A stretch of 64,000 nucleotides of DNA from Halopseudomonas xinjiangensis. GTDB taxonomy: Bacteria; Pseudomonadota; Gammaproteobacteria; Pseudomonadales; Pseudomonadaceae. Shown here in pieces: positions 16,632 to 19,886 of this stretch. The stretch is from positions 186,001 to 250,000 of the forward strand of contig DRFO01000017.1 in the NCBI GenBank assembly GCA_011050525.1, read 5' to 3'. Position 1 is the stretch's first letter. Each line of letters starts with the position of its first letter. A program made the position numbers and the translations under genes. The notes beneath the pieces were generated by a model. It did no database searches. It worked only from the letters and a program-made list of their open reading frames with translations, and was not told the DNA's origin.

Positions 16632-18134
16632 ATGACCGATCAGCCGCAGGACCAGCAGGCCCAACACGAGGAAGAAAACAGCCTCATCGCACTGCGCAAG
16701 GAAAAGCTTGCCGCCGAGCGGGCCAAGGGCAGCGCCTTCCCGAACGATTTCCGCCGCGACAGCTATGCAGGCGACCTGCAGAAAAAATACGCGGAAAAAG
16801 GCAAGGAAGAGCTGGAGACGGCCGCTATTCCGGTCAAGATTGCCGGGCGCATCATGCTCAATCGGGGCGCCTTCATGGTTGTGCAGGATATGACCGGACG
16901 CATTCAGGTCTACGTTGATCGCAAAGGACTGCCGGCCGAAACCCTGGAAGCCATCAAGCACTGGGACCTGGGTGATATTATCGCCGCCGAGGGCACGCTG
17001 GCGCGCTCCGGCAAGGGCGATCTGTACGTGAACATGAAGAGCGTCAAGCTGCTGACCAAATCCTTGCGCCCTCTGCCGGACAAGCACCACGGTCTGACCG
17101 ACACCGAGCAGCGCTATCGTCAGCGCTATGTTGATCTGATCGTCAACGAAGACACCCGCAAAACGTTTCTGGTGCGCTCGCGTGTGATTGCCCATATTCG
17201 CAAGTTTCTGGCTGAGCGCAACTTCCTTGAAGTTGAAACGCCGATGCTGCAAACCATTCCCGGTGGCGCGGCAGCCAAGCCGTTCGAAACCCACCACAAC
17301 GCGCTGGATTTGCCAATGTTCCTGCGTATCGCGCCGGAGCTGTATCTGAAGCGCCTGGTGGTCGGCGGCTTCGAGCGGGTCTTCGAGATCAATCGCAACT
17401 TTCGCAATGAAGGCGTCTCGACCCGGCACAACCCCGAGTTCACCATGCTTGAGTTCTATCAGGCCTATGCTGACTACGAAGACAACATGGACCTGACCGA
17501 GGAGCTGTTCCGCGAGCTGGCCATGGATGTGCTGGGCAGCACCGACGTGCCTTATCAGGGCAAGGTATTTCACTTCGGCGAACCCTTTGCGCGCCTTTCG
17601 GTGTTCGATTCGATCCTTAAATACAACCCTGAAATCACCGCGGCCGATCTGCAGGACCTCGACAAGGCTCGCGCCATTGCCAGGAAAGCTGGCGCGGCTG
17701 TGAAAGGGTTCGAGGGTCTGGGCAAGTTGCAGACCATGATATTCGAGGAGTTGGTCGAGCATCTTCTGGAGCAGCCGACTTTCATTACCCGTTATCCGTT
17801 CGAGGTGTCGCCGCTGGCCCGTCGCAGCGATGATGATCCAAGCGTTACCGATCGCTTCGAGCTGTTCATTGGTGGACGTGAGATTGCCAACGCCTATTCC
17901 GAGCTTAACGATGCCGAAGACCAGGCCGAACGTTTCCACGCCCAGGTTCAGGACAAGGACGCTGGTGATGACGAAGCCATGCACTACGACGCTGATTTCG
18001 TGCGCGCCCTGGAATACGGCATGCCGCCGACTGCCGGTGAAGGTATCGGCATTGATCGTCTGGTTATGCTGCTGACCGACGCGCCGTCGATTCGGGATGT
18101 GATTTTGTTTCCGCATATGCGGCCTGAGGTTTGA
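16632..18134 (+). CDS. lysS: Lysyl-tRNA synthetase (class II)
   Basis: LysS charges tRNA-Lys. The 500-residue product has an N-terminal OB-fold anticodon-binding domain (about 65-150: [20 protein letters not shown], then GRIQVYVDR). The class II catalytic core shows motif 1 ([23 protein letters not shown]), motif 2 ([32 protein letters not shown]) and motif 3 ([19 protein letters not shown]). The start ATG 16632 follows AGGAATAACC. It is downstream of prfB and probably co-transcribed. After its stop comes the repeat-bearing 18135-18602 region, which may end the transcript. A 504-codon frame on the opposite strand is shadow. Confidence 0.97.
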
Positions 18135-18171: not shown

Positions 18172-18179
18172 TTGTGAGG

Positions 18180-18350
18180 GAAACACTGATCAAGCGGGTC
18201 AAGGTGTATGGCCCAGCCAGGTTCGGCCTATGCCGGACACGCTACAAGCCATCCATGGGGCTCGTCGATGGCCATCCCTGGCCATCGACGGTCCGGCATA
18301 GGCCGAACCCGGCTGGGCTTGCATGGTTTGGGTGGGATGATCAGTGTTTC
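18180..18350 (+). repeat. Structured repeat, copy 1 (core inside two-tier inverted arms)
   Basis: The conserved core is 18238-18291. It holds two hairpins: a small one with apex CCATCCATGG, and a large one with 12-base arms (18263-18274 and 18279-18290) around TCCC. Flanking it are inner arms 18211-18237 and 18292-18318, complementary at 26 of 27 positions. Then come unpaired stretches of 18 and 19 bases, then perfectly complementary 13-base outer arms (18180-18192 and 18338-18350). The core recurs inverted in copy 2, but the arms do not. I know similar core sequences occur scattered in marine gammaproteobacteria, but I know no established name or function. Confidence 0.85.
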
Positions 18351-18399
18351 ACATGGCCACCGGGGGCATTTTGGCCGGTGTTACGATGAATAAGCGGGA

Positions 18400-18568
18400 A
18401 TTATGGGGCGTTGTAAAACAGATAAGCTGCGGTGTCGGAGGTCTCCCTATCCTGGACCGTCGATGGCCAGGGATGGCCATCGTCGAGCCCACATGGATGT
18501 GCTTGTAGCGTGTCCATGATAGGGAGACCTCTGATACCGCATGACACAGTGATCCGTCGCCCCATAAT
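18400..18568 (-). repeat. Structured repeat, copy 2 (inverted relative to copy 1)
   Basis: The core (18457-18512, read on the minus strand) matches copy 1 except for one substitution in the large hairpin and a paired one-base insertion on each side of the small hairpin, which therefore keeps its pairing. Inner arms are 18428-18456 and 18513-18541 (about 26 of 29 complementary). Unpaired stretches of 17 and 16 bases follow, then 11-base outer arms (18400-18410 and 18558-18568). Arm sequences are unrelated to copy 1. The outer right arm ends 34 bases before the 18603 start codon. Confidence 0.85.
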
Positions 18569-18602: not shown

Positions 18603-19886
18603 ATGACAGTAAAACAGAGCGAACAGTACCAATTGGTAATCCGCAGCCTGTCGGACCGGATCGTCGAGGCGCAGGCGCCTATCCGGATTCTGGATGCGAT
18701 CAAATGGGATGATGGTTTGCGCGAAGCGTTTTTCCGCAGCAACTGCCAGAGCCTGCCGCAGGTGGGGCCCGACTATTACGCGCAGCGTCCGCTCGGTTTC
18801 GATCCAGGCGAGCGGCGGCAGGTCTTTCAGGATATCGAACGTGATATTACCCGCCAGCTGGGCACCTTCAACCCGGTAGGGCAGATCATGCGCCGCATGT
18901 GCCGGGAATACCGGATGGTCATTCGCATGCTGGAGGGCAGGGGTACGCCCGAGATGGGGCTTATCTCCCAGGAGCTCTACGGGTCTGCTTCGGATGCCTT
19001 CCACGCTGGTGATCCTACCTTGACCGATCTGGGGATTACTCTCAGCGAATCCCTGGCCAATATCGGGTCGGATCTGGGCCATGAACCCAAAACCATTGCC
19101 GCGCCCGAAGCTGTCGCCATTTTGCAGGAACGCATGAATCAGGCATTCCCTGACGATCAGGCCGTAAGGGTGTTCGAGTCTGACGGTATTGTTGCCGACG
19201 CGGCCGCCGGGGCGGATTACATCAAGATACGCAGCGACGCGATGTTCAATCCGCGCGACCTGAAAATTCTCGCAGTGCATGAAGGAATGGTGCATGTCGC
19301 GACCAGCCTCAACGGCCAGCATCAGCCCATATGCACCTTCCTGGCCAAAGGGCCGCCGTCTTCCACTGTTACCCAGGAAGGGCTGGCCATTTTGATGGAG
19401 GTGATAACCTTTGCCTCTTATCCGGCGCGCCTGCGCAAGCTGACCAATCGTACCCGCGCTATTCAATTGGCCGAATCCGGTGGCGACTTCATGGACGTGT
19501 TTCGTTTCTACCAGGAGCAGAACTATACCCGTCAGGATAGTTATACCAACGCCAGTCGGGTTTTCCGCGGGTCCAGTAGCGACGGGATGCCGTTCACTAA
19601 AGATCTTGCCTACCTGAAAGGCTTTATTCTGACCTACAACTATATTCAGTTGGCGGTGCGCAAAGGCAAATTGCAGCAGATACCGCTGTTGTTCTGCGGC
19701 AAGACCACGCTTGAAGATATGCGTACCCTGGGGCAACTGGTGGAGGAGGGGCTGGTAGTGCCGCCCAGGTACCTGCCAGAGCCCTTCGCGGACCTGAACG
19801 CACTGAGCGCCTGGATGTGCTTTTCAGGCTTTCTGAATAACCTGAGTCTTGACCGTATCGAAGCGGATTATGCCAATATTCTTTGA
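18603..19886 (+). CDS. DUF1704 / QEGLA-motif protein, putative zinc metallopeptidase
   Basis: Annotated in relatives as a flavohemoglobin-expression-modulating QEGLA motif protein. The 427-residue product has HEGMVH (226-231), an HExxH zinc-binding motif, and the name-giving QEGLA (258-262), whose Glu259 could be the third zinc ligand. DUF1704 also contains the animal MATCAP tubulin tyrosine carboxypeptidases, so a peptidase of the gluzincin type is the best inference; a bacterial substrate is not known. I set the start at ATG 18603, with AGGGG 5 bases upstream. The frame extends back to 18432 only through repeat copy 2. The next small membrane gene begins 12 bases after the stop and is probably in the same operon. 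Confidence 0.85.
   Translation: MTVKQSEQYQLVIRSLSDRIVEAQAPIRILDAIKWDDGLREAFFRSNCQSLPQVGPDYYAQRPLGFDPGERRQVFQDIERDITRQLGTFNPVGQIMRRMCREYRMVIRMLEGRGTPEMGLISQELYGSASDAFHAGDPTLTDLGITLSESLANIGSDLGHEPKTIAAPEAVAILQERMNQAFPDDQAVRVFESDGIVADAAAGADYIKIRSDAMFNPRDLKILAVHEGMVHVATSLNGQHQPICTFLAKGPPSSTVTQEGLAILMEVITFASYPARLRKLTNRTRAIQLAESGGDFMDVFRFYQEQNYTRQDSYTNASRVFRGSSSDGMPFTKDLAYLKGFILTYNYIQLAVRKGKLQQIPLLFCGKTTLEDMRTLGQLVEEGLVVPPRYLPEPFADLNALSAWMCFSGFLNNLSLDRIEADYANIL

Follow-up and report, generated by a model that had tools for sequence, protein, structure and literature searches.

The sponge RNAs CsrB, RsmY and RsmZ are single dedicated genes. TwoAYGGAY (Rfam RF01731) belongs to clan CL00106, in which a control scan also places CsrB. 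In the accessible parts of the two reports, TwoAYGGAY is recorded from the human gut, gammaproteobacteria and Clostridiales (PMC2864571), and is proposed from its loops to bind CsrA (PMC4333381). The CsrA/RsmA target is given as CANGGANG, A/UCANGGANGU/A, with the SELEX consensus RUACARGGAUGU, in the available text of PMC6849547. A literature search, whose sources were likewise accessible in part, found no published test of binding between TwoAYGGAY and CsrA.

The Yersinia repeats YPAL and ERIC are similar in size to the elements described here and have a message-stabilising role. In the accessible text of PMC3733652 they are palindromic, intergenic and classed as MITEs, the likeness to our elements being one of description only; the same text gives REPs as repeats of 20–40 bp that carry a tag, either GTAG or CGTC. 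Searching the open literature by words and by sequence strings, as judged from the listings, returned no paper recognisable as describing the present repeat.

The window is a stretch of 64,000 nucleotides from Halopseudomonas xinjiangensis, in which the intergenic gap between a lysine-tRNA-ligase-like gene (lysS, in our own reading) and a QEGLA-motif protein gene holds two inverted elements. We read the pair, with a probability of about 0.6, as one inverted dimer of a TwoAYGGAY-related RNA element that carries a predicted CsrA/RsmA-dimer site and has spread in the manner of REPs. The idea of CsrA binding is not new; the addition made here is the reach of the family, which continues well under the Rfam cut-off, and its nature as a dispersed repeat of high copy number.

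The inverted elements of the window

Both window copies share one architecture, in which outer paired ends enclose a 28-bp stem, and the stem encloses a core with two hairpins, of which B is small and A large (Table 1). The preliminary description had placed the two cores at 18238–18291 and 18457–18512, where we find them, and had drawn in each a small and a large hairpin with shared apices; both hairpins are present, with apices CATCC(A/C)TG, and the arms 18258–18302 and 18446–18490 are 93% complementary. It stopped at the core, however, and so missed the 28-bp stems and the outer paired ends around each. The extra A and extra T that flank the small stem of copy 2 do pair in the alignment, and the folds are better than those of dinucleotide shuffles, none of 200 being as good for either copy. 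No intrinsic terminator is predicted at the window copies. There is one promoter-like site, at 18541–18568 on the plus strand, against 0.3 in shuffles, and no conserved promoter-like signal adjoining the element stem was found.

Table 1. Features of the two elements and their neighbouring genes, in window coordinates
Feature	Position	Strand	Basis
Element 1 (w1), whole unit with outer ends	18179..18351	- (predicted RNA strand; core reads on +)	R2 match 18211-18318 on -, 84.3 bits; fold z -12.1 on + strand
Element 1 outer paired end, left arm (GGAAACACTGATCA)	18179..18192		pairs with 18338-18351; different yet complementary sequence in orthologues
Element 1 outer paired end, right arm	18338..18351		pairs with 18179-18192
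Element 1 28-bp stem, left arm	18211..18238		96% complementary to 18291-18318
Element 1 28-bp stem, right arm	18291..18318		pairs with 18211-18238
Element 1 small hairpin B loop, ATGGAT on RNA strand	18251..18256	-	sequence; fold
Element 1 large hairpin A loop, AGGGAT on RNA strand	18274..18279	-	sequence; fold
Element 2 (w2), whole unit	18400..18568	+ (predicted RNA strand; core reads on -)	R2 match 18430-18539 on +, 84.9 bits; fold z -9.7 on - strand
Element 2 outer paired end, left arm	18400..18410		sequence; fold pairing with 18558-18568
Element 2 outer paired end, right arm	18558..18568		sequence; fold pairing with 18400-18410
Element 2 28-bp stem, left arm	18430..18457		90% complementary over 18428-18457 / 18512-18541
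Element 2 28-bp stem, right arm	18512..18539		pairs with 18430-18457
Element 2 large hairpin A loop (AGGGAT)	18469..18474	+	sequence; fold
Element 2 small hairpin B loop (ATGGAT)	18493..18498	+	sequence; fold
Upstream gene, lysine-tRNA-ligase-like, with class II synthetase domains	16632..18134	+	Pfam PF00152, PF01336
Downstream neighbour, QEGLA-motif protein gene	18603..19886	+	TIGR02421, 393.7 bits; PF08014

Copy number, range and named relatives

The two copies belong to a repeat family that is real, large, structure-conserved, dispersed and intergenic, and far bigger than the pair first noted. A pattern search followed by a covariance model (R1, built from 10 of 12 aligned copies) gives 14 copies in the source genome of 3.97 Mb. 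R1 matches 23 of 148 genomes of the family and, in the same genus, 13 genomes (the source included), with six listed without a match. A second model (R2, built from 39 diverse copies) matches 79 of 369 gammaproteobacterial genomes and 71 of 272 genera; in a draw of 398 genomes from the phylum, whose share from outside the class is not stated, all 33 matching genomes lie inside the class. Copies number at least 150 each in Xanthomonas hortorum and X. arboricola, 134 in Marinobacter azerbaijanicus, 124 in Stenotrophomonas maltophilia SJTL3, 88 in Microbulbifer elongatus, 80 in Luteimonas weifangensis, 42 in Halopseudomonas yangmingensis and 40 in Halomonas socia. Among the matches listed, the pattern also occurs in Alcanivorax, Sedimenticola and Rheinheimera. 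Elements are carried by Pantoea plasmids; phage records gave no element match, and IMG/VR held 0 exact matches to the element pattern. The matches listed also include one record under the title Bacillus subtilis and one under Klebsiella pneumoniae (MAG) (loci L144 and L172), for which contamination or mislabelling seems likelier than true presence.

The covariance-model search proposed in the preliminary description yields what it had looked for, i.e., copies with paired substitutions in Halopseudomonas, Marinobacter and Halomonas; a lack of copies elsewhere, and stem differences without covariation, were both sought and neither occurred. Its suggestion of cores scattered in marine gammaproteobacteria is too narrow, as copies also lie in Xanthomonas, Stenotrophomonas, Luteimonas and Pantoea.

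In Rfam, the window copies match nothing credible at the gathering cut-off or at E up to 1. Two of the 54 loci scanned pass the TwoAYGGAY cut-off of 43 bits (L259 with 44.7 and L260 with 44.0 bits), and R2 scores the same two at 102.9 and 98.9 bits on the same strand and span. Three further loci (L378, 32.3; L249, 35.3; L266, 36.8 bits) match on the strand of the R2 match but below the cut-off. Matches in that range carry little weight in general, because hairpin families with no relation to the element (microRNAs, DUF3800-IV) score there too. Even at E up to 10, TwoAYGGAY matches are confined to five of the 54 loci, the window and the other scanned loci having none. The earlier view that the element has no named family needs amending, as two relatives found by R2 pass the cut-off, the window copies falling below it.

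The likeness to TwoAYGGAY lies in two hairpins with (A)NGGA(N) loops on one long stem, on the same strand and span. Compared with an AYGGAY loop, many element loops have G at position 2, loop A of the two window copies included, and, unlike TwoAYGGAY as described, the elements form a high-copy dispersed repeat with inverted dimers, on both of which points the accessible text of PMC2864571 and PMC4333381 is silent. A second named family, the Yersinia sRNA Ysr224 (RF02770), has a consensus that resembles the element core. In two scans it hit the elements in 16 of 20 and in 12 of 20 loci, always below its cut-off of 70 bits (best 40.8). Ysr224 differs from the elements in that it lies on the core strand, opposite the predicted RNA strand, and is by name a narrow family; E. 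coli gave no match to the Ysr224 stretch. Ysr224 seems to be a narrow relative that lies on the other strand.

Paired changes, folded strand and loops

In 10 source-genome copies, with the structure set by hand from one of them, 16 of 25 pairs show changes in both partners and pairing holds in 94.3% of cells; 0 of 500 shuffles are as high on either measure. The wider test uses A5, a gapless 108-column alignment of 39 diverse copies. Of 125 copies that were extended, 53 have a core of 60 nt, and the 39 are those left once near-duplicates and other small-hairpin lengths had been removed by hand. Here 91.4% of cells pair, against at most 43.2% when the registers are slid by 1–3 columns. Changes on both sides affect 36 of 44 pairs, a weak result alone since shuffles give 33.1, and 538 cells, against 176 in shuffles. 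Arm pairing runs for about 28 positions and then ends, as seen in 95 copies (20 of 115 without a clear core edge having been dropped). The covariation claimed earlier from a lone A/T insertion, weak evidence by itself, is borne out by these additional copies.

Mismatches within the stems favour one strand. On the core strand, 95 copies contain 153 A-C and 49 G-T mismatches (our own sum over positions 4–27), which amounts to G-T wobble on the opposite strand. On that opposite strand the 39 copies have 57 G-T against 24 A-C (p 0.0003); counted per sequence, G-T prevails 24 to 7 with 8 ties (p 0.003), and the arms only, set against a composition background, give 50 G-T to 22 A-C (p 0.0075). In X. 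hortorum the same strand has 190 G-T to 7 A-C, or 24 to 6 as distinct column events, and S. maltophilia shows no strand asymmetry (13 to 11). Since G-T exceeds A-C on the strand opposite the core, that strand is, with moderate support, the likelier one to fold, i.e., the reverse complement of the one drawn as folded in the preliminary description.

Read on this strand, the loops are nearly constant. In the cross-class set of 53 copies (four of 57 dropped), an ANGGAN hexaloop caps hairpin A in 51 and hairpin B in 52, with positions 1, 3, 4 and 5 invariant among the hexaloops and positions 2 and 6 variable. In X. hortorum and S. maltophilia together, 111 of 113 copies have ANGGAN in each hairpin; position 2 of loop B takes all four bases, and loop A is almost uniform. 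The models favour ANGGAN loops, which makes copies lacking them harder to find, and three weak matches below 40 bits, of 125, were excluded from the loop and strand counts in these two species and from the arrangement counts. The paired loops match the published CsrA/RsmA target and mark each element as a predicted CsrA-binding site; the full 12-base SELEX consensus occurs in 16 of 262 distinct copies.

Four species of the genus retain the inverted dimer at the orthologous site, where all 16 loops, read by eye, are ANGGAN, while the stems and outer ends have largely been swapped for other complementary sequence. Arms that largely differ at one locus within one genus, yet stay complementary, could also arise if the complementarity came mainly from a mutational process (template switching, with one arm corrected from the other) instead of selection on the fold; the scarcity of wobbles, 50 G-T of 936 arm cells, points the same way. 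We consider this unlikely as the main cause, because it accounts neither for the fixed loops and junction nor for a G-T excess over A-C that is confined to a single strand; it may operate alongside selection. The earlier proposal that the fold is under selection is better supported by loops fixed save at their N positions than by paired change in the long arms, which palindrome-correcting mutation could explain in part and which by itself does not prove selection. The set is a large body of covariation data in which constraints on stem and loop can be told apart clearly, and it cautions that rapid covariation of long palindromic arms is no proof of function.

Arrangement, mobility and predicted CsrA binding

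By our own codon-based gene calls, 272 of 274 elements lie outside genes and two inside. Neighbouring pairs are divergent in the predicted RNA sense in 74 of 95 cases, as in the window, and the other arrangements number 12, 5 and 4. Two sampling routes supplied the X. hortorum and S. maltophilia records, and possible overlaps are left in these arrangement counts. Singles and clusters together fall in 57 convergent and 15 divergent gene contexts, against 51 and 83 for other gaps. Single copies in tandem gene contexts are sense in 27 cases and antisense in 24, i.e., without bias (an earlier count that included pairs gave 46 and 33), so that orientation does not support a cis-acting role in messages. 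Around 110 loci no neighbouring gene cluster recurs in more than five, and we read the neighbours as ordinary chromosomal genes.

A preference for convergent gaps, together with very stable hairpins on both strands, would suit a strand-neutral device at 3' ends, of the terminator or message-stabilising kind suggested for REPs, acting without CsrA. This seems quite improbable, as it leaves the conserved loops, the junction and the strand asymmetry unexplained, and no terminator-like site is present at the window copies.

Placement resembles that of REPs. With GTAG/CGTC REPs, REPINs and the TIR repeats associated with RAYT/TIRYT, the elements share an intergenic location, high copy number, inverted dimers and avoidance of promoter regions, as far as the accessible text of PMC3733652 and, for SMAG, PMC2613905 describes them. 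They differ from REPs in that the unit is at least 108 nt, no GTAG or CGTC stands at the stem foot in A5, and the Y1 transposase genes sampled are not flanked by elements; GTAG letters inside the junction of the window copies are incidental only. The main rival to our reading is a mobile DNA repeat of REP/REPIN or MITE type. Its strand would fold as single-stranded DNA, a transposase or recombinase would recognise the loops and the junction, and effects in RNA would be incidental. The location outside genes, the one prevailing inverted arrangement, the avoidance of divergent gene pairs and the lack of sense bias all agree with it, as do near-identical Luteimonas copies at many sites and the terminal paired ends of several Halopseudomonas copies, around which no target-site duplication was established.

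Also in favour of this rival, Y1 transposase is found more often in genomes that bear elements (64 of 79) than in element-free ones (177 of 290; p 0.0008, a hand tally uncorrected for descent). A role for Y1 transposase as the mover was nevertheless not supported: none of 17 Y1 loci in eight genomes has an element within the 3 kb fetched, no Y1 match was obtained in the 80-copy Luteimonas genome, and by hand tally eight element-bearing genomes at least 97% complete lack Y1. On plasmid pDCA (NZ_KU922118.1; L232, 2927–4518) an ISAs1-family transposase gene (NF033564) lies between an inverted element pair, which likewise suits the rival; by visual reading, 16-bp terminal repeats enclose this unit and a 10-bp direct duplication lies beyond them. 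This unit is possibly an autonomous relative or a captured pair; as none of nine other ISAs1 loci carries elements, the ISAs1 transposase was not supported as a general mover, and the pDCA case may be a capture. A purely DNA-level repeat also leaves unexplained why its loops equal the CsrA target, and we hold it to be somewhat unlikely.

Several loci show further arrangements. In X. hortorum, dimers (L341–L366; e.g., L349, 2531–2800) have common outer flanks, with spacers of about 53 or 130–147 nt in the examples, and the dispersed unit there seems to be the dimer and not the single element. Six elements in the same orientation form a tandem array at about 227-bp spacing in L264 (G684:C1, 818–2062). 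Elements of Luteimonas weifangensis (L319–L337) are near-identical with more diverged flanks, and upstream of many of them a decayed second core seems present.

The csrA gene is found in 74 of 79 element-bearing and 239 of 290 element-free genomes (p 0.013) and, among high-quality genomes of the class, in 65 of 66 with and 215 of 248 without elements (p 0.003), both being hand tallies uncorrected for descent. One genome 98% complete with at least nine element matches (G342, locus L247) gave no csrA match.

The reading as a TwoAYGGAY-related RNA element with a CsrA/RsmA-dimer site draws on the ANGGAN loops, the covariation, the G-T excess, the two loci above the TwoAYGGAY cut-off, the CsrB clan and the co-occurrence with csrA. 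Counted against it are the absence of sense bias in single copies, of a conserved promoter, of a terminator in the window and of asymmetry in S. maltophilia, as well as G342 without csrA, Ysr224 on the opposite strand and the window copies below the TwoAYGGAY cut-off. On the strand opposite each core, the 28-bp stem would end in a junction bearing two hairpins with ANGGAN hexaloops, and in a copy transcribed in that sense one CsrA/RsmA dimer would be expected to grip both loops. Such a copy could provide a local CsrA site in its own transcript, or many copies could sum to a CsrA sponge. Because close pairs mostly point apart, a transcript crossing from either side would carry one copy in the binding sense; in the window, a transcribed element 2 would form part of the downstream gene's leader. 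As in the CsrB, RsmY and RsmZ sponges, with whose clan RF01731 is grouped, paired GGA loops are expected to bind CsrA dimers; unlike them, the elements are many dispersed copies with two predicted sites each, for which a promoter was not found. From these features we infer CsrA binding and regulation by the elements.

Tentatively, and as one possibility, the family may be a mobile RNA element whose spread supplies gammaproteobacterial genomes with ready-made CsrA-dimer sites. Inverted dimers would offer a site to transcripts from either side, such that an insertion could put new genes under Csr/Rsm control, and the copies together could buffer CsrA, the size of the pool following their number. 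For TwoAYGGAY, an orphan RNA, relatives at tens to at least 150 copies per genome make the CsrA prediction testable in many laboratory strains. If our reading is true, a mobile repeat would be tied to a global post-transcriptional regulator.
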